Of a DNA stretch of 64,000 nucleotides, positions 1 to 50,045 are shown one piece after another. A program made the translations under genes and the position numbers. This DNA is from Corynebacterium accolens (GTDB lineage: Bacteria; Actinomycetota; Actinomycetes; Mycobacteriales; Mycobacteriaceae): positions 1,657,438 to 1,721,437 of the forward strand of contig NZ_CP046605.1 of NCBI RefSeq assembly GCF_023520795.1, in the 5' to 3' direction. Every line of letters starts with the position of its first letter. The stretch's first letter is position 1. Below the pieces are notes generated by a model that saw only the letters and a program-made list of their open reading frames with translations, had not been told where the DNA came from and made no database searches.

Positions 1-528
1 AGCGGGCAGCCCGGCGTCTTCATCCGCTTTGGCGGCATGACCATCCCTGCGCGCGGGGCCCGCAAGCAGCACACCTCTGACCTGCGCGCTTTTGAGTCCC
101 TGCGGATCCCGGATGCCACCCCGCGGCTGCACCCGCAGCCCTTGGCGCCGCACCCGGTAGAAATCATCCCTGCCTACCCCGGCGCGGGGCGCGTGCTTGT
201 CGATGCCGCCCGCACTTCCGCCGCCGGCCTCGTCATCGAGGCCATGGGCGCGGGCAATATGAGTGGGGATATGGGCCGCGCGCTTGCCGATGCCCTCCGC
301 GATGGCCTCCCCGTCGTTATTTCCACCCGCACCCCGTACGGCGCGACCGCGTTGTCCTATGGCGGCGATGGCGGCGGGGCGAGCCTGCATAGCTTGGGCG
401 CGATCAACGCGGGTGCCTTCCGCCCCAGCCAGGCGCGTATTCTTTTGGCCGCGGTGCTGGCCACCGGCACGGACCCTGCCGAGGTATTCCGGCAAAGCCC
501 TGACCCCAAGCGCTACCGCGAAGCCTAG
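1..528 (+). CDS. ansA: L-asparaginase, C-terminal part (5' end outside the window)
   Basis: The frame is open from the first base and ends at a TAG, giving about 175 residues of the C-terminal half of a bacterial L-asparaginase, which hydrolyses L-asparagine to aspartate and ammonia. The segment FGGMTIPARGARK near the start and the late block STRTPYGATALSYGG match the C-terminal domain of the family, as does the closing helix (ARILLAAVLATG). The catalytic Thr-containing N-terminal domain lies upstream and cannot be checked. The ATG at 37 is internal, because in-frame coding continues to base 1. The gene converges on dinB and the two stop codons overlap by 2 bases. Confidence 0.85.
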   Translation, partial: SGQPGVFIRFGGMTIPARGARKQHTSDLRAFESLRIPDATPRLHPQPLAPHPVEIIPAYPGAGRVLVDAARTSAAGLVIEAMGAGNMSGDMGRALADALRDGLPVVISTRTPYGATALSYGGDGGGASLHSLGAINAGAFRPSQARILLAAVLATGTDPAEVFRQSPDPKRYREA

Positions 529-1910
529 TCTTGGGTTTCCAGCCAGTCTTGCCAATCTAAGGAATCGAGCGGATCCGCCGGCACCAAATCCCGGTCGCTG
601 GCGGCAAAGGATTTCGTGCGGCCGGGTCCGGTGGCGCGGGTTTCAAAACGCACGCTGACCACCCCGTGCCCGGTGCCCTGGATCCAACCGTGGCCAAATT
701 CCGGGTGGTAGACGTCCTGGGTGGCGTGCCACTGATCCTCCACATCGTCTTCGACTACCACGGTGGTCGGCGCCGGTGGCGGGGAGTCATCGCTCACGCC
801 CGTTTCATAGTCGCTATCCGGCAGCACAGGCCGCACGATTTCGCGGTCGAGCTCAGGAAATAGTACGTCTTGGCGCGCGGCTTCCAGCCCGGAATAGCTC
901 ACCCCCACCAGGCGGATGGGGCCCAGCTCATCCGGGTAGCGCGCCAGCTTGAAGGCGGCGGCGGTCAATACCTCCAGGTCATCGGTGGCATAGGCCAGGG
1001 TGGTCGATCGCGATTCGATGTGGAAATCCGCCATTCGCAGCTTTACCGTCACCGTGCGCGCGCCGCGGCCATCTTTAAGCAGGCGGCGGTGCGCACCCTC
1101 GGCCGCGCGGGTAATCGCCGCGTCCACATCCGGTACCGTCAGCAGGTCCTTGGGATAGGTATGCTCCGTAGAAATCTGCTTGGAAATCGCGCGCGGGGCA
1201 ACTTCCCTATCGTCGATGCCCTGCGCCAGCTGCCACAGCTGCAATCCGACGACGCTGCCGATGGAGATTTCCACCTCCTTTTGGGTCATGGCGGCCAGCG
1301 CCCCGATGGTCTCCACCCCGATGCCCTTAAGCTTGGCCTCCGTAACCGGCCCGACGCCCCACAGCTTTCCCACCGGGAGCGGATGCAGCATCTCCAGCTG
1401 CTTATCCGCTGGGATGACATAGGTGCCATCGGGCTTGGCTTCGCCGGAGCCGATCTTGGCAAATTGCTTGCCGGAGCCCGCGCCGATGGAACACGGCAGG
1501 CCCGTTTCCTCCCGGATGAGCGCGCGCAGGCCATCCGCCCACTGTTGCGCCTCATCAGCCGTCGCACCTACCAGCGCCTCTGGCTCCATAAAGGCCTCAT
1601 CGATAGATAGCTGCTCGATCACCTCCACGTGCTGGGAGATGATCTCAAATACCCGGCGCGAGGCCGCCGAATACACGGCCCGGCGCGGGCTGACCACCAC
1701 CGCGTGCAGGCCCACCAATTGCTGGGCGCGATACATCGGCATCGCCGAGTGCGCGCCGTACTCGCGCGCCTCATAGGACGCACCGGCAACAACCCCGCGG
1801 CCGCCGACCCCACCGACGAGCACCGGCCGGCCCTGCAAAGTCGGTCGGGTCAATTGCTCGACGGAGGCGAAAAACGCATCCATATCGATGTGTAAGACCC
1901 AACGTTGCAT
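525..1910 (-). CDS. dinB: DNA polymerase IV (Y-family) with C-terminal extension
   Basis: Error-prone translesion polymerase of 461 aa. The start at 1910 (MQRWVLHIDMDAFF) puts the catalytic D9-x-D at the usual distance; an open frame continues 32 codons further up but overlaps the GntR gene start and has no family match. The second active-site motif SIDEAF is present, followed by the helix-hairpin-helix and little-finger regions. A QDVLF motif near residue 347 looks like a beta-clamp binding peptide. An acidic, proline-rich linker (about 365-392) leads to a C-terminal module (about 396-448, VYHPEFGHGWIQGTG) resembling the small Tudor-like tail of actinobacterial helicases and some actinobacterial DinB proteins. 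Confidence 0.93.
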   Translation of the reverse strand: MQRWVLHIDMDAFFASVEQLTRPTLQGRPVLVGGVGGRGVVAGASYEAREYGAHSAMPMYRAQQLVGLHAVVVSPRRAVYSAASRRVFEIISQHVEVIEQLSIDEAFMEPEALVGATADEAQQWADGLRALIREETGLPCSIGAGSGKQFAKIGSGEAKPDGTYVIPADKQLEMLHPLPVGKLWGVGPVTEAKLKGIGVETIGALAAMTQKEVEISIGSVVGLQLWQLAQGIDDREVAPRAISKQISTEHTYPKDLLTVPDVDAAITRAAEGAHRRLLKDGRGARTVTVKLRMADFHIESRSTTLAYATDDLEVLTAAAFKLARYPDELGPIRLVGVSYSGLEAARQDVLFPELDREIVRPVLPDSDYETGVSDDSPPPAPTTVVVEDDVEDQWHATQDVYHPEFGHGWIQGTGHGVVSVRFETRATGPGRTKSFAASDRDLVPADPLDSLDWQDWLETQD

Positions 1911-1953
1911 GCCCTCCAGTCTAAGCCACGCCAACCCCAGAATTGGGAATAGG

Positions 1954-1990
1954 TTGACGCTTAAACTAACTTGTATGCAAGATGTATGCA
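1954..1990 (+). promoter_or_regulatory. GntR gene promoter region with an 11-bp-phased direct repeat
   Basis: The octamer TGTATGCA occurs at 1972-1979 and again at 1983-1990, the second copy running into the ATG at 1990. A TTGACG (1954-1959) could be a -35 element; no well-spaced -10 is obvious. The 11-bp period puts both repeats on the same face of the helix, so they may be the operator for the adjacent GntR protein. This is inference. Confidence 0.4.
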
Positions 1991-2634
1991 TGAGCGATAC
2001 AAGCATGCAGCCTGCCGCGGAGCGGGTTTATGAATTGGTCAAAGAAAGGATCATCGACGGCACCATCGATTCCTCGCAGATGCTGTCAGAAGCCGCACTC
2101 GCGGCCGAGGTTGGGGTCAGCCGGACCCCGGCCCACGAGGCTTTCCTGCGCCTGGAGCTCGAGGGCTTTTTGCAGCTTTATCCCAAGCGCGGCGCGCTGG
2201 TCGTGCCGATTAGCCCCCAAGAAATCCGCGAGGTCTACGAGGCGCGCCTGCTTGTCGATGCCCACAGTGCCGAAAAGATCTGCGAGCTGGGTGAGGCGGA
2301 ACGTGGGGGCATCGCCAAGCGCCTGCAAGAAAACATCGCGGCCCAAGACGCCGCCCTGGATGCCGAGGATCTCCGCGAATACACGCGCCTGGATGCGCAA
2401 TTCCACCAAATCATCATGGATAGCGCCGGCAATAGCCTGCTGGCCAACGTGGGCCACCAGCTGCGCGAGCGTCAGCAACGCTTTACCGCCACCGCCATCG
2501 GGCGCAATGTGGCGCGGGCCCGCGCGTTCGTCGATCAGCACCGCGTGCTTGCCGATGCCCTCCGCACCGCCAACCTGCCCGCCTACCTCGCCGCACTCCG
2601 TTCGCACCTGAAGAATTCGAAGGATCAACTATGA
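1990..2634 (+). CDS. GntR-family regulator, FadR/FCD type
   Basis: A 214-aa transcription factor. The N-terminal winged helix-turn-helix (about residues 10-75) has the GntR pattern LSEAALAAEVGVSRTP followed by LELEGFLQLYPKRGA. The C-terminal part (about 80-205) is the all-helical FCD ligand-binding domain, with the usual metal-site Asp/His positions (DAQFHQ and DQHR). The ATG at 1990 was chosen because the domain begins just after it; no Shine-Dalgarno sequence is visible and the longer frame to 1888 has no family character. Its stop overlaps the MFS start by 4 bases (ATGA), so it probably controls that transporter and itself. The inducer is unknown. Confidence 0.88.
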   Translation: MSDTSMQPAAERVYELVKERIIDGTIDSSQMLSEAALAAEVGVSRTPAHEAFLRLELEGFLQLYPKRGALVVPISPQEIREVYEARLLVDAHSAEKICELGEAERGGIAKRLQENIAAQDAALDAEDLREYTRLDAQFHQIIMDSAGNSLLANVGHQLRERQQRFTATAIGRNVARARAFVDQHRVLADALRTANLPAYLAALRSHLKNSKDQL

Positions 2635-3863
2635 GTCAGGACCCCGCCAATCGCGACTGGTTACCCGTCGCAGGCAGCATGGTGGCCGTTGCCTGGGGCG
2701 GCAATGAATTTACTCCCCTGCTCGTGATGTACCGCGAGCAATCCCACTTCTCGCAGGTCACCGTCAACGGCCTCCTGGCGGCCTACGTCATTGGCATCGT
2801 GCCCGCGCTGCTTATCTCCGGGCCGCTGTCGGACTATATCGGCCGCCGCCCGACGATGCTGCCCGCCGCACCGCTCTCCCTGGCCGGGTCCTTCCTGCTG
2901 TCCATCGCTCCCGAAGAACCCCTCATCATCGCCGCCGGCCGCGTGCTGTGCGGCCTGGCGCTGGGCATCGTCATGGCGGTCGGCTCCACCTGGATTTCCG
3001 AGCTCATCACCCGCTCCGGCGGCGACCCCGCCGCAGGCCCCCGAAAGGCATCGATGTGCCTTACCCTGGGCTTCCTCATCGGCGCCGCCCTAGCCTCGGT
3101 GCTGGCCCAATGGGGCCCGTGGCCCACCCACCTGGCCTACGTCCTACACATCCTGCTTACCGTCATTACCGCGGTGTGGCTATTGAAAACCCCCGAAACC
3201 CGTCCACCCCGCGGCGCGACCGTCAAAGACACGTTCCTGGATTTAAGCATCCGCGATATGCTGCACATGCTGCATATTCCTTCTGTCGCGCACCGCCGCT
3301 TTTCCCGCATCGTCCTTCCCGTAGCCCCCTGGGTATTCGGCTGCGCGGGCGCGGCCTATGCCCTTTTGCCGCAGCTGCTTTCCGATTCCGCCGGCGATGC
3401 CCCCATCGCCTTTTCCGGTCTCATGACCGTCATCACGCTAGGCTGCGGCGTTGGCATCCAAATGTTTGGCAAAGTCATCGACACCCACCGCTCCGCCCGC
3501 GCCTCCGCCTTTGCCATGGCCGTCATTACCGTCGGCACCGTCTTCGGTGCCATCGCCGCGCGCACACTCTCCCTCCCGCTCGGTATCACCAGCGCCGCTG
3601 TCATGGGAGCTGGCTACGGCCTAGCACTTGTCGCCGGCCTTTCCGAGGTCCAGCGCATCGCCGGAAAAGATGACCTCGCCGGCCTTACCGCCGTGTTCTA
3701 TTCCGTGTCCTATACCGGCTTCTTTATCCCCATGGCCTTTAGCGCGCTTGCGCCCTACATAGGCTTCACCGCACTATTCCTCATCGGCTCCCTGCTCGCC
3801 GCATGCTGCCTCATCAACGTGATTCACGGCTGGCGCGCCCACCTGCCCGGCCCCGTGCGCTAG
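2631..3863 (+). CDS. MFS transporter
   Basis: A 410-aa integral membrane protein of the major facilitator superfamily with about 12 hydrophobic segments and a central cytoplasmic loop around residues 190-215. The loop between TM2 and TM3 carries the family motif A (GPLSDYIGRRP, about residues 64-74). It is translationally coupled to the GntR gene by a 4-base overlap, so the pair is probably one induced uptake or efflux unit. The substrate cannot be told from the sequence. The ending is hydrophobic followed by a short basic tail. Confidence 0.88.
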   Translation: MSQDPANRDWLPVAGSMVAVAWGGNEFTPLLVMYREQSHFSQVTVNGLLAAYVIGIVPALLISGPLSDYIGRRPTMLPAAPLSLAGSFLLSIAPEEPLIIAAGRVLCGLALGIVMAVGSTWISELITRSGGDPAAGPRKASMCLTLGFLIGAALASVLAQWGPWPTHLAYVLHILLTVITAVWLLKTPETRPPRGATVKDTFLDLSIRDMLHMLHIPSVAHRRFSRIVLPVAPWVFGCAGAAYALLPQLLSDSAGDAPIAFSGLMTVITLGCGVGIQMFGKVIDTHRSARASAFAMAVITVGTVFGAIAARTLSLPLGITSAAVMGAGYGLALVAGLSEVQRIAGKDDLAGLTAVFYSVSYTGFFIPMAFSALAPYIGFTALFLIGSLLAACCLINVIHGWRAHLPGPVR

Positions 3864-3897
3864 GGCCAGTCCTGCAACACGTAGCCAGAAAACGCAG

Positions 3898-3932
3898 AAA
3901 CCGGAGCGCCTCCTCAAGGAGGGCTCCAGTTT
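3898..3932 (-). terminator. Hairpin downstream of secreted paralogue A, also downstream of the MFS gene
   Basis: Inverted repeat AAACCGGAGC ... GCTCCAGTTT with an inner CCTCC/GGAGG pairing. Its outer arms are nearly identical to those of the hairpins at 5881-5915 and 7287-7321, which lie at the same place (50-60 nt) after the two other paralogues. It may act in both directions. Confidence 0.7.
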
Positions 3933-3994
3933 AGTTACTACTTGGTACCTAGTCCGGGCTTCAAACAGCTGCTAATCCGCTGATTAAAGCAAGA

Positions 3995-5470
3995 TTAGAA
4001 CTTGAACAGTGAGAAGAAGTTACGCAGTGGCTGCAGGAAGCGCGCGATCCCAGAGAACTGGTTAAAGAATTTGGCAACGCCTGCCACAAAAGCAACTACA
4101 CCAGCGATTACCCCAAAAGCAGCGCCGAAGTTAGAGCTGCTCCCTCCACTGCCGTTGCCCGGAACCGAAGGCTTGCCCGGCTTTTCACTACCGTCGTTGC
4201 CCGGACCCTGCGGGTTACCCGGCTTCTCACTACCGTCGTTACCTGGAGTCTGGCCCTTACCGTTATCAGGGGTTTGCTCGGGTCGCGACTCGCTGCCCTT
4301 ATCAGCAGCCTTTACGACCACCTCTACACTATTGGATTTACCAGTTTCCGGATCCGTAACGGTAGGCACTGGAGAAACCTTTACCTTTTCACCGGCCTTT
4401 AACTGCACGCTTTCAGGAACATCGATTCCAAAGGGAACGAGCTGACTTTCAGATGCTTGGCCCTTCTTTGCAGGGTCTTTCGGTAGCTCTACGACAGTTG
4501 ACTGATGACCTCCGCCCGGGAAATAAGCCTCAATTTCCTCTTTTTGCCCTGGGAACAAACGAAGCTTTCCGGTAACTTTCTTGTCCCCCTCCTTGATGTC
4601 ATTTACTTCCGCGATAACATCAACCGGGAATTCGTCCACAGAGTCTCCAGAATCTGGGTCTTCGGGGGTTTCGGAGCCTTCGCTACCGGCACCTGATTGG
4701 TCAGATCCCCCTGGGCTTTCAGGGCCTTGGCCTTCATCTTCAGCTACATCTGCAGGTTCAACAACTACTTTAGTGGAAACTACTTTGACACCTGGCTTGG
4801 AAGGATCTTTAGACGGAGTAACGATCAGTTCTTGGCCGGCCGTTAATTGCAGGCCTCCAGGAACGGCAACTTCAAAGGGGACATATTCGCCTCGAGAGAT
4901 TTCACCTTCTCCAACAGACTTGTCCTCATGTTTTACTGTGACAGATGGCTGTAAGCCATTCGGGAAAAACACGTTGATAGTCTTCTCTTGACCTGGGAGC
5001 AAAAACACCCAGCCAGTAACATTCTTAGCGCCCGCTTTGACGGCATTCACCGTTAGAGTATCCGCAGACTGCTGTTCGCCACCAGCCCCATTGCCCTGAG
5101 TTTCGCCGGGTTCGTCGGCCTCATCAGCAGCTTTATTATTTTGCGCCTCAGAGTTGACCTGCCCAGTAGTCAACTGCTCAATCTCCTCAACGCTAATGGC
5201 GAGAGTACCGTCTGCTCTCTTCAGCTCTTTAGCCACCGACTTCAAATCTTCAATGCTGAGCTTAGAAATCTGTTCTGCGGTCAGATGGCAATTCCGCTCC
5301 AAGTGTTCCGCGACCTTGGCGTTTGCATCACCGTCAAAATCGCTTCCCGGGCGGAAGCTCTGTTCGCAGTTTACATGCGTATCATTAGCCCACGCGACTG
5401 GGGCAACAGCAGGAACAACGAGGGACACAGACATAGTTGCAGAAGCGAGAACGCGCTTATTGAGTTTCAT
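3995..5470 (-). CDS. Secreted/surface protein, paralogue A (two Ig-like repeats)
   Basis: 491 aa, not recognised as a named protein. The signal peptide MKLNKRVLASATMSVSLVVP ends near AVAWA. Residues about 30-105 form a helical domain with two cysteines (VNCEQ and RNCHL), possibly a disulfide. Two related beta-rich repeats of about 110 aa follow (VTGWVFLLPGQ and VTGKLRLFPGQ blocks), resembling bacterial Ig-like domains of adhesins. Then comes a Pro/Gly/Asn-rich linker with a 14-aa tandem repeat, and a C-terminal tail with a hydrophobic stretch (FGVIAGVVAFVAGVAKFF) and an amphipathic end (ARFLQPLRNFFSLFKF). The RBS is GGAAGG. There is no LPxTG. It has two paralogues directly upstream on the same strand. 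Confidence 0.85.
   Translation of the reverse strand: MKLNKRVLASATMSVSLVVPAVAPVAWANDTHVNCEQSFRPGSDFDGDANAKVAEHLERNCHLTAEQISKLSIEDLKSVAKELKRADGTLAISVEEIEQLTTGQVNSEAQNNKAADEADEPGETQGNGAGGEQQSADTLTVNAVKAGAKNVTGWVFLLPGQEKTINVFFPNGLQPSVTVKHEDKSVGEGEISRGEYVPFEVAVPGGLQLTAGQELIVTPSKDPSKPGVKVVSTKVVVEPADVAEDEGQGPESPGGSDQSGAGSEGSETPEDPDSGDSVDEFPVDVIAEVNDIKEGDKKVTGKLRLFPGQKEEIEAYFPGGGHQSTVVELPKDPAKKGQASESQLVPFGIDVPESVQLKAGEKVKVSPVPTVTDPETGKSNSVEVVVKAADKGSESRPEQTPDNGKGQTPGNDGSEKPGNPQGPGNDGSEKPGKPSVPGNGSGGSSSNFGAAFGVIAGVVAFVAGVAKFFNQFSGIARFLQPLRNFFSLFKF
4176..4260 (-). repeat. 42-bp tandem repeat, two copies, in paralogue A linker
   Basis: Two copies starting at 4176 and 4218, 42 bp apart, each encoding a 14-residue PGNDGSEKPG-type unit in the Pro/Gly-rich linker before the membrane-like tail. 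In-frame repeats of this kind can change copy number between strains. Confidence 0.75.
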
Positions 5471-5589
5471 ATGAACCTTCCAAGGTTACTACAAGCCACG
5501 GGTCCCATACGCCACGTTTTACTTTCAAGGAATAAAAGCATGAGCGGACACCGCAGAAAGTGGGATAACACGAACCTTATCGTGTCATT

Positions 5590-5628
5590 TACGTTTTTAA
5601 ACGTAGAATTAGTAAACCATATTGGTTT
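5590..5628 (-). promoter_or_regulatory. Paired inverted repeats upstream of paralogue A
   Basis: Two palindromes 8 bp apart: TACGTTT-TT-AAACGTA (5590-5605) and AAACCA-TAT-TGGTTT (5614-5628). Both lie about 120 bp before the start codon and are preserved in sequence and spacing upstream of paralogue B (7065-7103). They probably bind regulators or overlap the promoter; which factor is unknown. Confidence 0.6.
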
Positions 5629-5880
5629 CTCATCCAAAAGGTTCAAACCGGAAAAGTGTGCGATATCACTTGAAGGCCGCGCCTGTAGTAAAGCGTAACT
5701 TTTCCGGTAGCGAACCCCGTTTAACAGGGGCGTTGAAGGATTACTTCAGGCCCTACCACACGCGCCAGATTGATACTCAGCCTGGGCGACATACACATCG
5801 CAGATCACAAAGTGCCCCAAATAATGCGAGACTAGAACTAAACAGACAAGATCCGCTTTCCTGGCCCATTCATCAAAAGG

Positions 5881-5915
5881 AAACCGGAGCACATCCACGA
5901 AGGGGGCTCCGGTTC
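5881..5915 (-). terminator. Hairpin downstream of paralogue B
   Basis: AACCGGAGC ... GCTCCGGTT stem, followed on the minus strand by a short U-rich stretch. It is homologous to the hairpins after paralogues A and C and lies 62 nt past the stop codon. Confidence 0.7.
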
Positions 5916-5977
5916 AGTTCCTAACCCAGACACGGTCAGGACACCGGACCCGCGCTCATCCGGTAACTCAGACAGGA

Positions 5978-6943
5978 TTAGAACTTGATGTTGAACTGTG
6001 CCAAGAAGTCTCGCAGCGGCTGCAAGAAGCGAACGAGACCTGAGTTCGGGTGGAAGATTTTAGCGATACCCGCCACCACAGCAGCCAAACCAGCAAGACC
6101 AGCGACTACGCCAAAGATATTGCCAAAGTTAGAGCCGTCCTCTCCAGCACCGCCGCCTGGAGCCGGCGGCTTTGGCAGATTCTCACCACCACCCGGAGCC
6201 GGCGGCTTTTGCGGATTCTCATTACCACCTGGAACCGGCGGCTTTGACGGATTGTTGCCAGCGCCACCCCCTGGAGCTTGACCATTACCCTTGTCAGCCG
6301 CCTTAACAATGACTTTAACGGGTTTATCTTTATTGGCATCCTCTTCTGCGATATCAATAAGCCTGGAAACTGTTATTTCATCTCCGGCTTTTAGTTGCAA
6401 GTCTTCAGGAACACCGAATGTAAAGGTGACAACTTTACCTCCAGAAGGTTTACCTTCTTCACCGGACTTTTCGTCAGAGTTTAGCACTTTAGTTGCAACG
6501 GTCCGGTTTGGATAATGCGCCTGAATTATCTTCTGCTCACCTGGGAGCAAATATACAGAGCCAGTGATCACCCTATCCCCCTCTTTGACTTCATTCACCG
6601 ATAGAGGCTGCCCAGACTGCTGTTCGACATCAGCAAGATTCTCGCCGTTATCGCCGAAGGAAACGTCGCTGCCTTCTGCTCCCCCAACAACCTCAGAAGG
6701 CAATAATTGCTTGAACTCTTCTTCAACGCCAGGCTGAGAGGCTTCACCTTGACTCAACTCGCAGTTTGGCTGCAGATAATCTGCATCATTGACATTGAAT
6801 CCAGAATGAGGATCGCCCCCATCATCGGATTCCTGTGCGCAGTTGACATGGCCATCAGTAGCCCAGGCAACTGGGGGGACAACAGAAGCTACGAGAGACG
6901 TAGAGAGGGCTGCAGAAGCGAGAACACGCTTATTGAGTTTCAT
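5978..6943 (-). CDS. Secreted/surface protein, paralogue B (one Ig-like repeat)
   Basis: 321 aa from the ATG at 6943, which has the same GGAAGG ribosome site and signal peptide (MKLNKRVLASAALS) as its paralogues; an open frame reaches 6982 but adds no recognisable sequence. After the signal peptide is a short cysteine-containing region (VNCAQ, PNCELSQ) lacking most of the helical domain of A and C. One Ig-like repeat follows (about residues 100-200, ITGSVYLLPGEQK), then a PPAPGGG-rich linker with three 12-aa repeats, and the common tail FGVVAGLAGLAAVVAGI plus FLQPLRDFLAQFNIKF. Function unknown; probably cell-envelope associated. Confidence 0.83.
   Translation of the reverse strand: MKLNKRVLASAALSTSLVASVVPPVAWATDGHVNCAQESDDGGDPHSGFNVNDADYLQPNCELSQGEASQPGVEEEFKQLLPSEVVGGAEGSDVSFGDNGENLADVEQQSGQPLSVNEVKEGDRVITGSVYLLPGEQKIIQAHYPNRTVATKVLNSDEKSGEEGKPSGGKVVTFTFGVPEDLQLKAGDEITVSRLIDIAEEDANKDKPVKVIVKAADKGNGQAPGGGAGNNPSKPPVPGGNENPQKPPAPGGGENLPKPPAPGGGAGEDGSNFGNIFGVVAGLAGLAAVVAGIAKIFHPNSGLVRFLQPLRDFLAQFNIKF
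6159..6266 (-). repeat. 36-bp tandem repeat, three copies, in paralogue B linker
   Basis: Copies start at 6159, 6195 and 6231 (period 36 bp) and encode a 12-residue unit built on KPPAPGGGEN. The third copy is slightly diverged. The repeat forms the stalk between the Ig-like domain and the C-terminal tail. Confidence 0.8.
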
Positions 6944-7064
6944 ACGAACCTTCCAAGGGGAACTACAAGCTACGGGCCCCATACGCCAAGATGTGCTTTC
7001 AAGGAATGGAAAGCATGGACAGACTCCGTAGAAAGTGGGATAACACGATCTTTATGGCGCCATT

Positions 7065-7103
7065 TACGCTTTTAAACGTAAGATTAGTAAACCATATTGG
7101 TTT
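7065..7103 (-). promoter_or_regulatory. Paired inverted repeats upstream of paralogue B
   Basis: The arrangement matches 5590-5628: TACG...CGTA palindrome (7065-7080), an 8-bp gap, then AAACCATATTGGTTT (7089-7103). The same distance from the start codon is kept, so the regulatory region was duplicated with the gene. Paralogue C retains only a diverged version. Confidence 0.6.
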
Positions 7104-7286
7104 TCCATTCAAAATATCCACCACCAAAAAGTGCGCGAAATCACTCAATCGCTGCGCCTGTAGTGCAGTGAAACAATCGCCAGTAGCAAGCTCCGCTCAA
7201 TAGGGGATGATTGCTGGGTACGTGAAATAGCACGAGGCTGAAGCTAAACAACCAAAGTCCACTTCCCTGCCCCTATTAACCAAAAG

Positions 7287-7321
7287 AAACCGGAGCACCT
7301 CCGCAAAGAGAGCTCCGGTTT
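7287..7321 (-). terminator. Hairpin downstream of paralogue C
   Basis: A perfect 10-bp stem AAACCGGAGC / GCTCCGGTTT, followed on the minus strand by TTTCTTTTGG, 53 nt after the stop of paralogue C. It looks like an intrinsic terminator and is homologous to those after A and B. Confidence 0.8.
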
Positions 7322-7374
7322 AGCTATTGTCCGAATCATAGCCAAGGCATGAGCCCAAGCAAATTCAGACGGAA

Positions 7375-8265
7375 TTAGAACTTGATGTTGAACTGTGCCA
7401 AGAAGTCGCGAAGTGGCTGCAAGAAGTGAGCAAAGTCCTGGTTCTGGTTCAACCAATGGGTAGCGCCTGCAACCAAAGCGGCCAAGCCGCCAAGGCCTGC
7501 AATCACGCCAAAGACCTTACCGAATTTAGAGCTACCCACTGCATCATCAGGGGTGCTCTCTTCATTGCTGTCAGCCTCTTCAGCGGCACCAACCATGATG
7601 GTCGTGCTTTTACCGTTCGATGGAACCGTAACGAAGGAAACTTGGTCATCTGCCTTCAGCTCAACACCCTCTGGAACAGCGATAGTAAATTCCACCAATC
7701 GCAGTCCTTCTTCTAGGACAATTCCGTCTCCGAGTTCAACTGTCGCTTCCTTGCCACCTGGGAAGATGGCTTTAACCGATTGCTTTTCGGCGCCAACGAC
7801 GAATGCCTGCCCGGTTACTTCACGCTCACCGGCAGCAATGTCATTGGCCAAGATTGAAGTTTTCTTCTCAACGCTCTGCTCGTCAGAACCTTGTTCCTTT
7901 TTCGGCTTATTTGCCAAACCATCCAAATACGGCTTGACGACAAACGAATTTGGCTGCTTCACATTATTAATTTGTGCTTCAGTTAGAGCCGGCCTTCCTT
8001 TGGAGTCCTTCAGCTCTTTCGCGACGGTCTTGACTTCCTCTGGGCTCAACTTCCCAATTTCCTCAGGACTCAAGCCACAATTCTTGTTGAGGTGCGCAGC
8101 TACAATAATCTCAGGAGTACCATTGAAATCAGCGCCTTTTTGGAACCTTTGCTCACACTTCGTGTGAGTCGGCGCCTCGTCAGCCAAAGCGACTGGAGCT
8201 ACAGCAGGAGCAACGAGGGATACGGACAGAGCGGCAGAAGCAAAAATACGCTTATTGAGTTTCAT
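7375..8265 (-). CDS. Secreted/surface protein, paralogue C
   Basis: 296 aa. Signal peptide MKLNKRIFASAALSVSLVAP with likely cleavage after VALA. The two-cysteine helical domain is kept (TKCEQRF, KNCGLSPEEIGKLSPEE), then one Ig-like repeat (about 145-240, VTGQAFVVGAEKQ). It lacks the long Pro/Gly linker of A and B and goes nearly straight into the tail FGVIAGLGGLAALVAG and FLQPLRDFLAQFNIKF, whose last 16 residues equal those of B. The RBS is GGAAGA. Its upstream region is related to, but more diverged than, those of A and B, suggesting it is the oldest or least constrained copy. No function is assigned. Confidence 0.83.
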   Translation of the reverse strand: MKLNKRIFASAALSVSLVAPAVAPVALADEAPTHTKCEQRFQKGADFNGTPEIIVAAHLNKNCGLSPEEIGKLSPEEVKTVAKELKDSKGRPALTEAQINNVKQPNSFVVKPYLDGLANKPKKEQGSDEQSVEKKTSILANDIAAGEREVTGQAFVVGAEKQSVKAIFPGGKEATVELGDGIVLEEGLRLVEFTIAVPEGVELKADDQVSFVTVPSNGKSTTIMVGAAEEADSNEESTPDDAVGSSKFGKVFGVIAGLGGLAALVAGATHWLNQNQDFAHFLQPLRDFLAQFNIKF

Positions 8266-8560
8266 ACAAATCTTCCAGAGAGTTCAGACGACTTTGGGTC
8301 ATATACGCAACGATGTGGTTTCACAGTTCAAAAACACATTGCCGCAGACGCGACTTAGCACGACATTTATCATGCTATTAGCGTTATTAATCTTGACCTC
8401 AGTTAACCATAAACGCGTGTGATCCCAAAGCATTTTTCGTCGATAATTTTGCTTCCTCCCCACTGTTAGGGGTGCTCTTTTCGCTCCCAGTCACCCCCAT
8501 CCAATGGCACATCTTCAGCAGTTGATATGTTAAGTGCCCCATCCCCGCCCCAAAAGATAA
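8266..8560. other. Gene-free stretch upstream of paralogue C
   Basis: AT-rich leader and promoter region of paralogue C, with weak similarity to the upstream regions of A and B (a diverged AACCATAA near 8405, on the plus strand). Nothing else was recognised. Confidence 0.5.
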
Positions 8561-8862
8561 CTAATGCCAACTCGCGATGCGCAGGATGTAGTCTAATCCT
8601 CTGTTTCCATAGGTTTCTACGATTCCGCTAGCAATGTTCCCAAGCACTGGACCGACCTGTTCCTCAGTAACTTTCCATTCGCGTTGGGTTAGCTCAGCAA
8701 CAAGGTCTTTGGCTGGCGGTCCAATCTGCCTAGTGCCGATGCACTAAGCAATTGGCTCACCACCTCGTATTTTGTTTTCATCTTCTGGCTATTGGATGCC
8801 CTGATTCGCAAGTGCACAAAGCGACCCAGTCGAACGCTGTAGATAGCATCCGGCCGGGCCGT
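8561..8862 (-). pseudogene. Frameshifted coding remnant downstream of ileS
   Basis: On the minus strand one frame is open from 8862, includes an ATG at 8781 (MKTKYEVVSQLLSASALG) and hits a stop soon after. The neighbouring frame is open from 8743 to a TAG at 8561-8563 and reads as a protein-like C-terminus (VAELTQREWKVTEEQVG, then GLDYILRIASWH) but has no start codon at its beginning. Joining the two needs one frameshift, between about 8743 and 8690. The joined product is about 73 aa from the ATG, or about 100 aa if coding began upstream. The family is not recognised, and it could still be chance open frame. Confidence 0.4.
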
Positions 8863-8867
8863 TTAGA

Positions 8868-8880
8868 GCACGCGCCGTGC
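8868..8880 (-). terminator. Small hairpin after ileS
   Basis: GCACG-CGC-CGTGC hairpin beginning a few bases after the ileS stop codon, without a proper U tract. It is a weak candidate terminator, so read-through into the remnant is possible. Confidence 0.3.
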
Positions 8881-8884
8881 GCTT

Positions 8885-11800
8885 TTAGTTCTTCGCTACG
8901 GTGGCGGTGACGTCGCCGAGGATGTCGTGGGCATCAGCAAGTGGCTCGGTGACCACGGAGAACTCCGTAGCTAGCACCTCTCCTGCGATGGTGTCTGCGT
9001 GGCGCTGCGCCCACTCCTTCTTGTCTTCAGGCACGGCAAGAACCACGGAGATGCGGTCCGATACGTCGAAGCCGGAGTTCTTGCGGGCATCCTGCAGGCC
9101 GCGGATAACATCGGCGGCCCAACCTTCGGCCTCGAGCTCCTCGGTGACCTCGGTATCCAGAACGACAAGGCCATCCAAGCCCTCGATGCGGGCCGTGGAA
9201 TCCGGGTTCGCAGCCTGCAAACGCTCGGTATATTCCTCGGGGCTCAAGACGATGTCCCCGTCAACCACGACCTCATCGCCGCGGCGCTCGTAGTTGCCCG
9301 CCTTAAGGTTCTTGATGGCGCGCTGGACGTCCTTGCCCAAGCGCGGACCGGCAACCTTGGCGTTGCAGACCACCTGGAAGGTGCCGACGGAATCGACATC
9401 GTCAGTAAGCTCAACCTCTTTGACATTGACCTCATCGCGGATGATGTCCGCGAAGTCCGCCAGGCTCTGAGAGCCCGCGAAAGCAACGGTGAGCTTCGGC
9501 AGCGGCAGGCGGTTGCGCAGCTTATTAGCCTTGCGCACCGAAGACGCAGCCGATGCCACCGCGCGAGTGGCGTCCATGGCAGAAACCAGGTCCGCATCCG
9601 CGGGGTAGTCCTCGGCCTTCGGGAAGTCCGCCAGGTGGACGGAGCGCTCACCGGTCAGGCCGCGGTAGATGACCTCGGCGACGTGCGGCAGCAGCGGGGC
9701 CACCACGCGCGTGGTGGTCTCCAGCACGGTGTAGAGGGTATTGAAGGCCTCCGGGTTGGCATCCTCGCCGCCCCAGAAGCGATCGCGGGAGCGGCGGACG
9801 TACCAGTTGGTCAGCACATCGGCGAAAAGGCGAACCTCTTCGGTAGCGGTGGCGATATCGGTCCCCGCCAGCGCGGCATCGACATTGGCCACAAGATCGT
9901 GGGTCTTGGCCAGGATGTAGCGGTCAAGCACGTGCGTGGAACTCGTATCGAACTTAGCTTCCTGCTCGGCGTAGAGCTGCAGGAAGGTGTACGCATTCCA
10001 GATGGGAAGCAGCGCCTGGCGCACGCCCTCGCGGATGCCCTGCTCGGTGACGATGAGGTTGCCGCCGCGCAGGATGGGCGAGGACATCAGGAACCAGCGC
10101 ATGGCATCGGAGCCATCGCGGTCAAAGACCTCGTTGACGTCCGGGTAGTTGCCCTTGGACTTGGACATCTTGAGCCCGTCATTGCCCAAGACGATGCCGT
10201 GGGCCACGACCTTCTTGAACGCCGGGCGGTCAAAGAGCGCGGTGGACAGCACGTGCAGCAGGTAGAACCAGCCGCGGGTTTGCCCGGAGTACTCCACGAT
10301 GAAGTCCGCCGGCGAGTGGGTTTCAAACCACTCTTTGTTTTCAAACGGGTAGTGCTTTTGCGCAAACGGCATGGAGCCAGATTCGAACCAGCAGTCCAGC
10401 ACGTCCGGCACGCGGCGCATGGTGGACTTGCCGGTGGGATCGTCCGGGTTGGGGCGGGTCAGCTCATCGATGTGCGGGCGGTGCAGCGACTCCGGGCGCT
10501 TGCCGAAGTCCCTCTCCAGCTCATCCAAAGAGCCGTAGACGTCCATGCGCGGGTACTCGTCATTATCGGACATCCACACCGGGATGGGCGCGCCCCAGTA
10601 GCGGGTGCGGGAGATATTCCAGTCACGGGCGCCTTCCAGCCACTTACCAAATTGGCCATCGCGGATGTGCTCCGGCAGCCACTCGATCTCGTTGTGGTTA
10701 AGCTCCACCATGCGATCGCGGAATTCGGTGACCTTTACGAACCATGCGGGCAGAGCCATGTAGATAAGCGGCTCGCCCGAGCGCCAGGAGTGCGGGTAGG
10801 AGTGCTCGATGGTGACGTGGCGCACCACTCGCCCAGCGGCCTTGAGGTCTTTGATGATGGACTTATTCGCATCGAAGACCAGCTGACCCTCGTATGGCGG
10901 GACCTGGGAGGTGAACTTGCCGTCCTCATTCACTGGGACCACCAACTCGATGTCGTATTCATTGGTGGTATTCATATCGTCTTCACCAAAGGCGGGTGCC
11001 TGGTGGACAACACCCGTACCGTCTTCGGTGGTGACGTAGTCCGCCAACAGTACCTGATAAGCATTGCGCAGGTCTGGGAAGAAGCCGAAGATCGGCTCGT
11101 ACTTAAAGCCCTCGAGCTGCGCGCCGGTGAAGGTGTCCAGCACCTCCGCCTCACCCAGCTCCTTTTCCAGGGTGCCCAGCAGGTTTTCGGCCATGATGAA
11201 CGTGCGGCCGGCGAATTCGCCGTCGGTGGCCTTAAATAGTGCGTAAGAGACCTCCGGGTGAACCGCCAGCGCCTCGTTGGACGGCAGGGTCCAGGGGGTG
11301 GTGGTCCAGGCGAGGAAGGAGGCATCGGCAAGCGCGGGGTAATCCGCCAGTGTCTTCTCCGCCGCGGTGCCCTCTCGAGCGCCCGCGACCGGGAAGGTCA
11401 CCGTCAAGGTGGGATCCTGGCGCATCTTATAGGAATCATCCAAGCGCGTTTCCTGGTTGGACAAGGAGGTATGCTCCGCCCAGGAATACGGCAGGACGCG
11501 GAAGCCCTTGTAGATCAGGCCCTTGTCATAGAGCTCCTTGAACGCCCACATGACCGATTCCATGAAGTTGATATCCATGGTCTTGTAGCCATTATCAAAG
11601 TCCACCCAACGCGCCTGGCGGTTGACGTAATCTTCCCACTCATCGGTGTATTCCAGCACCGACTTGGCGCAGTACTCGTTGAACTTATCCAGGCCCATGT
11701 CCTCGATCTGGGCTTTATCGGTAATACCGAGCTGCTTTTCTGCCTCTAGCTCCGCGGGCAGGCCGTGGGTATCCCAGCCGAAGACGCGGGGGACGTAATT

Positions 11801-12049
11801 TCCGGCCATCGTGCGGTAACGCGGCACGATATCCTTGACGTAACCGGTGAGCAGGTGGCCGTAGTGCGGTAGGCCGTTGGCAAAGGGAGGGCCATCATAA
11901 AAGATGTATTCGGGGCAGTCCTTGGTCTTTTCCAAAGAAGCCTGGAACGTATCATCCTGCTTCCAGTACTTCTGGACTTCTTCTTCCATATCCGGGAAAC
12001 GGCTCGAGCCGCCGGTCATATCGACCTTGGGGTAAATCTTTTTCACCAT
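8885..12049 (-). CDS. ileS: Isoleucyl-tRNA synthetase
   Basis: 1054-aa class I aminoacyl-tRNA synthetase that charges tRNA-Ile. The HIGH signature appears as PHYGH ([12 protein letters not shown], about residue 60), the KMSKS loop as LKMSKSKGN, and the inserted editing domain contains [14 protein letters not shown]. The C-terminal anticodon-binding region is long. The overall form ([18 protein letters not shown]) is the eukaryote-like, long IleRS found in actinobacteria, a type generally associated with low mupirocin sensitivity. The start is supported by GAAGGAAG 4-11 nt upstream. Expression is probably controlled by the T-box leader just upstream. Confidence 0.97.
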
Positions 12050-48113: not shown

Positions 48114-49157
48114 TTAGAACCGTGCAGTCCCCGAAATAGGCATCGAGTTAAGCGGCACGACCTGAACCGGCACACCATAGGTCGAGGCGTGTACAACCTG
48201 GCCGTTGCCAATGTACATTCCGACGTGGGTAACTCCTGGGTAGTAGCCCACGATATCGCCAGGCTGCAACTGGTCAACCGGCACGGACGTGCCACCAGCG
48301 ATTTGCGCCTGCGAGGTGCGCGGAATGGTCTTACCAATCTGCTGGTAGGCCCAGTACATCAGGCCGGAGCAGTCGAACTGATTCGGGCCGGCAGAGCCCC
48401 AACCATAGGGCGAGCCCAGCTTGGACAGAGCCGCAGAGCTAGCACCATCGGCGATCTCACCCAAGTCGATGTCCAGCTTATCCGTGCCGCCGAATTGTCC
48501 CTCCCAGGCTTCACGCTGCTCATCGCTGAGCGCATCCACCTGCGCCTCGATATCGGCCTGCTGCTCTTCCAGCGCCTCCTTTTGCTTTACCAGCTCATCG
48601 CGCTGCTTTTCGAGATCCTTCTTTTCCTTTCGGACCTTTTTCGCAGCCTCAGCGGCTTCCTGCTGAACCGCTTCGGCCGTCGAGGCGGCATCAGCCTTGG
48701 CATCGAGGGTGCGCTGCGCCTTGCGCGAGAGCGCGCCCAAGTAGCCCATGCGCTCTACGGCGTCTGCGGGGTCTTCTGCTGCCAAAGCGCCCGAGACGGC
48801 AGAACGGGAGTCGCCGCGGTAGCGAGACTGTGCCAGATCGTCCACGCGGCCTTGCTGCGTGAAGACATCGCCCTGCGCGTCGTGTACGCGTTCCTGGGCC
48901 TTGGCGGCGCCTTCCTCCGCCTGAGCGACCTCTTCTTCCTTGGCCGCGAGCTTATCTTCTAGCTCTTTGACTTCCTCGTTCTTAGCAGAGACCTTGCGGG
49001 CGACCTCGCCGACGCGATCCACCAGATCGTCAACATTTTCAGTGGCAGATTCTTGGTTCGGTTCCGCCTCTTGCGCGATAACTTGCGGGAGACCAGAAAG
49101 AGTAGTGACAGCGAGGACTGCAGTTAGTGCAGCGGCTGGGAGCACACGTTTAGACAC
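48114..49157 (-). CDS. NlpC/P60 peptidoglycan endopeptidase with coiled coil (RipC-like)
   Basis: 347 aa, exported: signal peptide VSKRVLPAAALTAVLAVTT, start GTG 49157. A long coiled coil (about 45-215, rich in Glu/Lys/Ala) precedes a short linker and the C-terminal NlpC/P60 domain (about 235-347) with catalytic Cys in FDCSGLMYWAYQQIG and His in THVGMYIGNGQVVHAS. The coiled-coil arrangement is that of hydrolases held inactive until released by FtsEX. It is the counterpart of Rv2190c and ends in ...GTARF, similar to the next gene's ...NAVRF. Confidence 0.9.
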   Translation of the reverse strand: MSKRVLPAAALTAVLAVTTLSGLPQVIAQEAEPNQESATENVDDLVDRVGEVARKVSAKNEEVKELEDKLAAKEEEVAQAEEGAAKAQERVHDAQGDVFTQQGRVDDLAQSRYRGDSRSAVSGALAAEDPADAVERMGYLGALSRKAQRTLDAKADAASTAEAVQQEAAEAAKKVRKEKKDLEKQRDELVKQKEALEEQQADIEAQVDALSDEQREAWEGQFGGTDKLDIDLGEIADGASSAALSKLGSPYGWGSAGPNQFDCSGLMYWAYQQIGKTIPRTSQAQIAGGTSVPVDQLQPGDIVGYYPGVTHVGMYIGNGQVVHASTYGVPVQVVPLNSMPISGTARF

Positions 49158-49228
49158 GAGAAGACCTTCAACTCAAAATTTTCAAAAATCGAATTTACTA
49201 TAGCGGGTTTTGGCCGCTGTTGCACAAC

Positions 49229-49256
49229 AAAACCCTTCCCTTTGCAAAGGGAAGGG
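49229..49256 (-). terminator. Terminator of the second NlpC/P60 gene
   Basis: Perfect palindrome CCCTTCCCTTT-GC-AAAGGGAAGGG (49233-49256), followed on the minus strand by TTTTGTTG, about 20 nt past the stop at 49276. Confidence 0.9.
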
Positions 49257-49275
49257 CATGTCATTTCACTGCCAA

Positions 49276-49905
49276 TTAGAAACGCACAGCGTTGTGGATC
49301 GGCATGTAGTTCAAGTCGCGCTCCTGCACAGGGGTGCCGGAGTTGAGCGCGTCAATGATGGTGCCGTTGCCGGTGTAGATACCGACGTGGGAAGCGCCAC
49401 CGTAGTAGGAAATGATGTCACCAGGCTGCAGTTGGTCCAAGGAAACCGGGGTACCGCCAGCGGCCTGAGCCTGGGAGGTGCGCGGAATCTGAACGCCAGC
49501 CTGGGAGTATGCCCAGCTAGTCAGGCCGGAGCAGTCGAATGCGCTCGGGCCGGCAGCGCCGTAAACGTACGGCGAGCCAAGGACGGAGCGTGCAGCTTCC
49601 AGAGCCTTCTGGCCAACGGTGGACGGTGCCGGAGCAGCCTGCTGCTCAGCAGCAGCAACGAAGTTGTCGCCACCCTGGTTGGAAACCTGACCCAAGGACG
49701 GGACGTACTTGTCAATGTTCGGTACCTGGTCAATGTTCGGAACGTTTTCCAGACCGGCAACCTCGAAACGGTAGTCGGTATTAGGAACAACGACCTCAGC
49801 AGCCTGAGCGACGCCTGGGGCGGCGACAGCTGCGGTTGCAGCGATAGCTGCAGTAGATGCGATACGACGGGTATTTACAGTGCCCTGACGACGGTGCTTT
49901 GCCAC
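49276..49905 (-). CDS. nlpC: Secreted NlpC/P60 peptidase
   Basis: 209 aa from GTG 49905 (GGAG 8 nt upstream). Signal peptide with VNTRRIASTAAIAATAAVAA ending at AQA. A short spacer rich in Pro/Val/Asn (about 40-95) leads to the NlpC/P60 domain (about 100-209) with Cys in FDCSGLTSWAYSQAGVQIP and His in ASHVGIYTGNGTIIDALNS. It lacks the coiled coil of its neighbour, so its activity must be limited in another way; the leader suggests control by cyclic di-AMP. Confidence 0.9.
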   Translation of the reverse strand: MAKHRRQGTVNTRRIASTAAIAATAAVAAPGVAQAAEVVVPNTDYRFEVAGLENVPNIDQVPNIDKYVPSLGQVSNQGGDNFVAAAEQQAAPAPSTVGQKALEAARSVLGSPYVYGAAGPSAFDCSGLTSWAYSQAGVQIPRTSQAQAAGGTPVSLDQLQPGDIISYYGGASHVGIYTGNGTIIDALNSGTPVQERDLNYMPIHNAVRF

Positions 49906-49929
49906 GAGAAAAACTCCAAATCTTCCTAC

Positions 49930-50045
49930 GCGTCTACTTTCCCTTGTAGAAAAGCTCTGACCCTGGGGCCTAGTGTTCATTGGAGGGCCGTTCCTTTAGG
50001 CCTTCCTCCACTCGGCCCCTCACTAGGAGGAGCCAGATGCGACGC
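49930..50045 (-). promoter_or_regulatory. Probable ydaO/c-di-AMP riboswitch before nlpC
   Basis: The minus-strand leader begins GCGTCGCATCTGGCTCC, close to the actinobacterial ydaO 5' consensus (GTCGC...CCGGCTCC), continues with a GGAGGAA-GGCC ... GGCC-CTCCAATGAAC helix like the GGGGAA...GGGUGAAC core, and ends GTAGACGC, so GCGTC (50041-50045) and GACGC (49930-49934) close P1. In relatives this riboswitch precedes rpf/nlpC wall-hydrolase genes. The match is by eye and some positions differ from consensus. Confidence 0.6.

Follow-up and report, generated by a model that had tools for sequence, protein, structure and literature searches.

The 64,000-nucleotide stretch analysed here (the window) covers positions 1657438-1721437 of a 2.47-Mb Corynebacterium chromosome. 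It carries three paralogous genes, here called A, B and C, which lie between ileS (8885-12049) and a major facilitator superfamily (MFS) gene (2631-3863), all on the minus strand; the two neighbours are named by sequence. We propose that A, B and C encode tandem, hypervariable, predicted secreted proteins in which Bap-like immunoglobulin-like (Ig-like) modules would form an outward-facing, adhesin-like coat, while the C-terminal tail would anchor the protein in the mycomembrane like that of PS2 (CspB) of Corynebacterium glutamicum. We put the probability of this reading at about two in three. Central to it is the tail, which is not private to the A-B-C family and is a PS2-anchor-like module that recurs on many unrelated Corynebacterium proteins. 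The parts, Bap-like Ig modules and a PS2-like anchor, are of known kinds; the family, its hypervariable island and the description of the tail as a module that can be counted across the genus are new.

The C-terminal tail module

The tails of the three proteins are encoded as follows:

3998..4153, minus strand: tail module of A, a hydrophobic stretch with an amphipathic end (tail alignments A1 and A3, own-genome search)
5981..6142, minus strand: tail module of B (tail alignments A1 and A3, own-genome search)
7378..7539, minus strand: tail module of C (tail alignments A1 and A3, own-genome search, AlphaFold2 model)

A3 is a model of 18 tails and A1 an earlier tail model. A ends in FKF and both B and C end in IKF; among the 46 remaining gene models of the window, F is the last residue in one. 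Searching the own genome with C alone returned A, B and, in addition, the end of a choice-of-anchor I protein (E = 3.6e-6) encoded 11 kb outside the window (own genome 1644866-1646800, locus L009 367-2301; NF038117, E = 1.5e-146). The choice-of-anchor I family takes its name from the varied anchors that its members carry. A family-only model of eight tails confirmed this tail, and 15 of 16 further C-termini beat all of their own shuffles. Ten of these proteins were scanned for families: a choice-of-anchor I protein, three Rib/YPDG proteins, three 5'-nucleotidases, an HtaA protein, an alkaline phosphatase and one protein without a family above the cut-off.

Two candidates from the own genome were discarded. 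The gene after that of the choice-of-anchor I protein encodes a predicted secreted protein of 159 amino acids with a hydrophobic C-terminus (L009 2367-2846), which scored 3.9 bits against 5.9 for its best shuffle; it had been part of A1 and was excluded from A3 because it failed this test. L054 (E = 0.25) failed the shuffle test as well. The end of a predicted secreted 5'-nucleotidase of the own genome (L055 1463-3514), in which GSS precedes a hydrophobic stretch and PLRAIFDDLRKTFHI, is weakly tail-like (E = 2.16; 13.6 bits against 10.1 for the best shuffle). A dnaE-like gene, judged by sequence, lies close to the choice-of-anchor I gene.

Across the genus, A3 found matches in at least 68 of 151 genomes at E up to 1e-3, with the own genome and those that supplied the model counted in; the earlier count with A1 was 17 of 151. 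From the best 150 matches of A3 we inspected 61, namely ranks 32-84 minus one model member, ranks 11, 17, 26 and 30, and five lower ones from two large genomes. The remaining entries down to rank 31 were model members, their orthologues, the family itself or matches examined earlier. Fifty-nine of the 61 begin no more than 75 residues from the stop, where 11.7 would be expected under even placement, and the remaining two look like excalibur-type proteins. By a rough rule, 44 of the 61 have a signal peptide; several of the others are truncated or mis-started frames.

Seventy-four tails of other proteins gave a non-redundant set of 56 after the failures L054, L096 and L113 had been removed. SS or G(S/T)S stands before the hydrophobic stretch in 55 of these 56, an enrichment that is partly by construction. 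On average 19 residues follow the stretch, and the last residue is F in 22 tails. Two K/R within six residues after the stretch were found in none of the 56, and an LPXTG-like motif neither in these nor, by sequence, in the tails of A, B and C. We rejected an identity as sortase substrates because the tails have neither an LPXTG-like motif nor a positively charged end.

The tail is nearly restricted to Corynebacterium, and matches outside the genus are few and weak. A draw of 201 genomes from the family gave A3 matches in 8, of which 5 were Corynebacterium and the others belonged to two genera; a draw of 197 from the class gave 3, one of them the own genome. Within Pfam and NCBIfam no model convincingly covers the tails.

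According to PMC12337289, the last 27 residues of PS2 keep the protein in the mycomembrane. As described in PMC12021427, a disordered segment precedes this anchor, which consists of a hydrophobic helix and a short amphipathic one and has an invariant last F and a penultimate P or K. By sequence, the ends of A, B and C agree with this layout. The AlphaFold2 model of C (296 amino acids) places helices at 260-274 and 282-290 with low confidence (predicted local distance difference test, pLDDT, about 43-51 and 60-69). The segment before the anchor appears disordered, with pLDDT below 50 from residue 232 on in C and Pro/Gly-rich linkers in A and B. Seven of nine loci found with the PS2 model (L116, L119-L124) end in such a tail. 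Applied to five PS2-model loci, A3 found the tail in L123 (E = 3.1e-4), L120 (0.018) and L116 (domain 0.0068, whole sequence 0.49) and not in L118 and L122.

The genome G548, which we presume to be C. glutamicum ATCC 13032, contains 13 A3 matches when E values up to 10 are admitted, and two when the limit is 1e-3. Eight of these matches are C-terminal tails built in this way, on a 5'-nucleotidase, a PAP2, an HtaA-domain, an Exo_endo_phos, a lamin-tail and a NEW3-domain protein and on two proteins without a Pfam match; the other five belong to membrane or other proteins. One of the two Pfam-less proteins we take to be a prenyltransferase-repeat protein already known for its PS2-like end. Similar ends have been reported on a few C. 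glutamicum surface proteins, among them an ExeM/NucH nuclease, a lamin-tail protein, a metallophosphoesterase and the prenyltransferase-repeat protein just mentioned (PMC12021427). A tail model that started from the window's own tails thus leads to the kinds of protein named there, a likeness by kind and not by accession.

The A-B-C family and its variability

The three genes are the following:

3995..5470, minus strand: paralogue A, 491 amino acids (open reading frame, relatives, A/B alignment)
5978..6943, minus strand: paralogue B, 321 amino acids (open reading frame, A/B alignment)
7375..8265, minus strand: paralogue C, 296 amino acids (open reading frame, B/C alignment, AlphaFold2 model)

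All three proteins start with MKLNKR and a signal peptide, continue with an N-terminal domain containing two Cys and carry LQPLR(D/N)F and a final KF in their tails. In A, the N-domain is helical and is followed by Ig-like module 1, a linker, Ig-like module 2, a Pro/Gly-rich linker and a tail ending FSLFKF. B has one Ig-like module, a Pro/Gly-rich linker and a tail ending FNIKF, and C one Ig-like module, a short linker and a tail ending likewise in FNIKF. An earlier ATG of B would give an open reading frame of 334 amino acids. By protein alignment A is homologous to B and B to C. The original prediction had described three head-to-tail open reading frames of these lengths, paralogous in signal peptide, Ig-like module and tail and differing in domain number, and all of this holds. 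Its view of the family as undescribed is right for Pfam and NCBIfam, in which no family reached the cut-off for A, B or C. It needs correcting on two points: the Ig module is already known, matching the Bap-C type by fold and by the sequence of the repeat, and the tail is widespread in the genus. An identity of B as BimA was rejected, since B scored 17.5 bits against a cut-off of 800 in the NCBIfam BimA model and the match was confined to the Pro-rich linker. The database names 'intracellular motility protein A' and BimA borne by relatives seem to stem from this linker.

A database of 5.8 billion proteins held 52 relatives, and those with a named source come from Corynebacterium (C. accolens, C. 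diphtheriae, C. propinquum or unnamed species). One C. accolens protein shares 93% identity with B. A second shares 91% with residues 1-270 of A and diverges from A beyond 270, so that the source species is probably C. accolens or close to it. The profile search proposed along with the original prediction found family members in 7 of 242 Corynebacterium genomes (E up to 1e-8). The proposed comparison of the locus placed the island at the same ileS-MFS site in G104, G574, G575 and G586, with divergent cassettes.

The cassette proteins are hypervariable next to near-identical neighbours (about 50-57% against 97-99%). Compared with the window, IleS is 98.7-98.9% identical in G574, G575 and G586 (the G104 stretch is without IleS), the MFS protein 97-98% (the G586 stretch is without it) and the GntR and dinP products 95-98%. 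The best matches of A in these syntenic genomes reach 51-54% by tblastn, and 55-57% in global alignments of the three intact ones. The idea of variable surface proteins is thus borne out as to variability, while surface exposure stays a prediction.

Two C. diphtheriae proteins (59% and 63%) are nearer to A than its syntenic relatives are. G574 and G575 differ as a mosaic, with an identity of 1.00 in Ig module 2 and linker, 0.98 in the tail, 0.73 in the N-domain and 0.41 in linker 1. Copy number varies between genomes, and broken or partial copies occur in G104, G575, G586, G571 and G030. From identity patterns, copy number and broken copies together we infer duplication, mosaic exchange and decay, and suggest transfer between species. 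Duplication followed by re-modelling, as first proposed, is supported by the leader common to A and B, the common hairpin and tail, the differing domain number, the mosaic identity and the tandem and broken copies in relatives.

In G030, a relative of 789 amino acids (L141 4667-7033) lies outside the ileS island and combines two N-domains, an Ig module, GA modules (PF01468, E = 2.8e-23, four stretches) and the same kind of tail. GA-type domains bind albumin in other bacteria (PMC3962080). Next to this relative are two other genes with signal-peptide-like starts. Family copies at L038 9651-10268 and L137 8281-8892 stop right after a Ser-rich stretch (SSSSSNLFG or SSSSSNLFS) and are thus without the hydrophobic anchor; they are perhaps released forms. 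In a literature search on tail-type signals or the A-B-C family, no paper on the family turned up, and PS2-like anchors were nearest.

Leaders, hairpins and surroundings of the island

Outside the coding regions the cassettes have these elements:

5473..5689, minus strand: leader of A, similar to the B leader and to five copies in four related genomes
6946..7164, minus strand: leader of B, similar to the A leader
8266..8440, minus strand: leader of C, diverged, with blocks common to other leaders in the multiple alignment
5568-5585, minus strand: inverted repeat ACACGA...TCGTGT of the A leader (from the sequence)
5590-5607, minus strand: palindrome around TACGTTTAAAAACGTA in the A leader (sequence, alignment); it and the inverted repeat span 5568..5607
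7063..7080, minus strand: palindrome TTTACGCTTTTAAACGTA (plus-strand letters) in the B leader, one difference from A
8358..8375, minus strand: GCATGATAAATGTCGTGC in the C leader, counterpart of the inverted repeat with one G-T pair
3900..3932, minus strand: terminator-like hairpin after A, -24.7 kcal/mol
5884..5912, minus strand: terminator-like CCGGAGC hairpin after B, -18.2 kcal/mol
7290..7318, minus strand: terminator-like CCGGAGC hairpin after C, -21.8 kcal/mol, also in the general terminator scan

Over 220 columns the A and B leaders show 81% identity, with a score of 227 where the best of 300 shuffles reached 25; the homology of about 120 nucleotides noticed originally is therefore real and longer. 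A search of the own genome with the A leader at E up to 1 found it upstream of A and B and nowhere else. Five leaders from G104, G574, G575 (two) and G586 resemble those of A and B as well, with 76-85% identity across 201-252 columns; the degraded first copy of G104 and six leaders tested in G030 and G571 were not clearly above shuffles. The leader of C aligns pairwise with those of A and B at shuffle level, scoring 25 and 27 where the best shuffles reached 23 and 25, and 26-30 and 23-26 in a second run. Compared with copies from sister species, the C leader scores slightly above shuffles (36 against 23, 35 against 23, 35 against 26), and it has blocks in common with the others in an eight-sequence alignment; it appears to resemble them weakly.

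Two elements recur in the leaders, namely an inverted repeat with the pattern CACGATAnnnnTCGTG and a palindrome resembling TACGTTTAAAAACGTA. The operator-like palindromes of the original prediction are present, in that those of A and B differ by one position and C has a counterpart of the inverted repeat; their operator role is predicted, and the elements of A may be operator-like or form a hairpin in the 5' untranslated region. A similar stem lies 3' of all three genes. The exact CCGGAGC...GCTCCGG hairpin occurs twice in the 64 kb, after B and C (expected 0.01), and the stem after A departs from it by one difference, so that the CCGGAGC hairpins claimed for all cassettes are exact for two. 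Termination is a prediction, because the T-runs are short and the general scan (10 sites against 6.3 expected) picked up only the hairpin of C. The motif also follows the copies tested in G104, G574, G575 and G586 (4 of 4) and is absent after both copies tested in G030.

The island had been noted as AT-richer than its surroundings, and in 500-nucleotide windows its GC content is indeed 0.47-0.58 (3751-8750) against 0.59-0.71 in the flanks (0.61-0.71 upstream, 1-3750; 0.59-0.65 downstream, 8751-11500). Rfam gave zero matches at E up to 0.1 for 3800-8900, and a promoter scan found 2 sites against 3.0 expected. The AT-rich segment at 8480-8880, between C and ileS, is without a gene-like open reading frame and is possibly the remnant of a further cassette. 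Elsewhere in the window, a dinP-like and a GntR-like reading frame, which lie on opposite strands, overlap with their 5' ends at 1888-2006, and a pair of adjacent NlpC/P60-like secreted hydrolases lies at 48114-49980, all named by sequence.

Alternative readings and known systems

If A, B and C are mycomembrane-anchored surface proteins, they would be exported by Sec through their MKLNKR-type signal peptide. The helical N-domain and the one or two Ig-like modules would be held out on a probably disordered linker, Pro/Gly-rich in A and B, and the C-terminal hydrophobic and amphipathic stretch, with the Ser motif before it and KF at its end, would insert in the mycomembrane by analogy with PS2. 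Such insertion is suggested by the architecture common with PS2, the use of the tail on many proteins of the genus and its near restriction to the genus. The exposed part may bind a host or bacterial ligand, as the likeness to Bap and the one relative with GA modules suggest, and the identity patterns are consistent with cassettes that duplicate, recombine, pass between species and decay.

Several points weigh against this proposal. The localisation in the mycomembrane is predicted from sequence, and the binding of a ligand is putative. The family profile aligns its own tail with PS2 445-498 only weakly (E = 0.7). Among the eight PDB matches of A3 there is no PS2 chain, and its weak matches say little because ordinary transmembrane helices reach E = 0.07. 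L117 and L118, relatives by the PS2 model, are without a tail at the stop as read, and the last residue of L116 is R. Of the 56 tails 34 do not end in F, 17 of the 61 inspected matches lack a signal peptide by the rough rule, and the serine motif is contained in the tail model that selected the tails. The model of C puts most of the hydrophobic helix below pLDDT 50 and the end at about 60-69.

The tail could instead be an ordinary C-terminal stop-transfer anchor of the inner (plasma) membrane, which would leave the proteins facing the periplasm or cell wall. Its single hydrophobic stretch lies close to the C-terminus, and in the PDB the tail model matches generic transmembrane helices best. 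C. diphtheriae ZnuE, whose C-terminus contains a transmembrane region, has been reported from the membrane fraction (PMC12445094). However, the C-termini of ZnuE and ZnuF are described as positively charged (PMC12445094), whereas in none of the 56 tails do two K/R occur within the six residues that follow the stretch, and the mean length after it is 19 residues. The few, weak matches outside Corynebacterium would be unexpected for a generic anchor, and we regard this explanation as unlikely. An S-layer-like lattice or coat, in which the tails oligomerise as in PS2 and the Ig modules form an array without ligand binding, would suit a tail architecture that is the same as that of PS2, whose hexamers are held by C-terminal helices (PMC12337289), and an own genome without a match to the PS2 model NF038023 at E up to 1e-5. 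Against it, NF038023 gave no row for A, B and C at E up to 1, and mixed domain numbers in one genome together with 50-57% identity between sister species fit a lattice poorly, which makes it quite improbable.

Corynebacterial porins are small, channel-forming, partly helical proteins (PMC11927696), and the tails might be membrane-active or channel-forming segments in the style of PorA/PorH, with the upstream modules as carriers, for instance for killing competitors. We give this idea very little credence, as an anchor would explain better than an effector why one tail is attached to many different enzymes and binding domains. Hardly more persuasive to us is an island of decaying, near-neutral paralogues that vary from lost constraint and not from selection for diversity. 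The broken or partial copies in G104, G575, G586, G571 and G030, the C. accolens protein that leaves A after residue 270 and the sparse family (7 of 242 genomes) would agree with it, but A, B and C are all open frames, and leaders and tails are conserved beside diverged middle parts.

We also entertain, tentatively and with more doubt than belief, a wider version of the mycomembrane-anchor proposal. The tail might be a sorting signal, specific to Corynebacterium, that directs proteins to the outer mycomembrane face. Made up of GSS, a hydrophobic helix, an amphipathic end and a last Phe, it would be read by dedicated machinery, possibly mycolate-lipidated at the Ser of GSS and carried by dozens of unrelated enzymes, receptors and S-layer proteins. 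The A-B-C island, a recombining antigen or adhesin cassette, would be its most variable cargo. If true, this would be a counterpart of LPXTG or PEP-CTERM. O-mycoloylation sites are reported from Ser/Gly-rich flexible stretches without a strict motif (PMC11066868), and the roles of the PS2 end residues and of mycoloylation have been posed as open questions (PMC12021427). The presumed C. glutamicum tail proteins were roughly compared with Table 1 of PMC11066868, using approximate gene numbers and the positions of Ser, and none could be matched; hydrophobic C-terminal peptides may escape detection in such data.

The way in which proteins get to the mycomembrane and are kept there is largely an open question, which the tail profile, covering nucleotidases, HtaA, choice-of-anchor I, Rib/YPDG and some S-layer proteins, makes testable by simple fusions. 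The ileS-MFS island offers a natural allele set for surface variation of commensal corynebacteria.

Among known systems, the Bap-C repeats of the staphylococcal biofilm-associated protein (PDB 7dm0, 6m3a) are represented here by just one or two diverged modules, and the N-domain and anchor differ from those of Bap. LPXTG sortase substrates and PEP-CTERM signals resemble the present case in that one C-terminal tail serves many unrelated proteins, including a choice-of-anchor family; unlike them, the 56 tails have no LPXTG-like motif and no K/R run directly after the hydrophobic stretch. With PS2 the tails have in common, by sequence layout, the C-terminal position, the flexible segment, the hydrophobic stretch, the short amphipathic end and a last F preceded by K, and the GSS motif also occurs in PS2 chain 9hpn; A, B and C differ in having no match to the PS2 model, and the sequence similarity is weak (E = 0.7). 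Closest are the PS2-like anchors of PMC12021427, likewise C-terminal hydrophobic anchors after a disordered segment with F, P or K as last residue. That account concerns a few C. glutamicum proteins, whereas the present analysis provides a sequence profile with a genus-wide count and outgroup draws, and also a Ser element and a hypervariable family that uses the tail.

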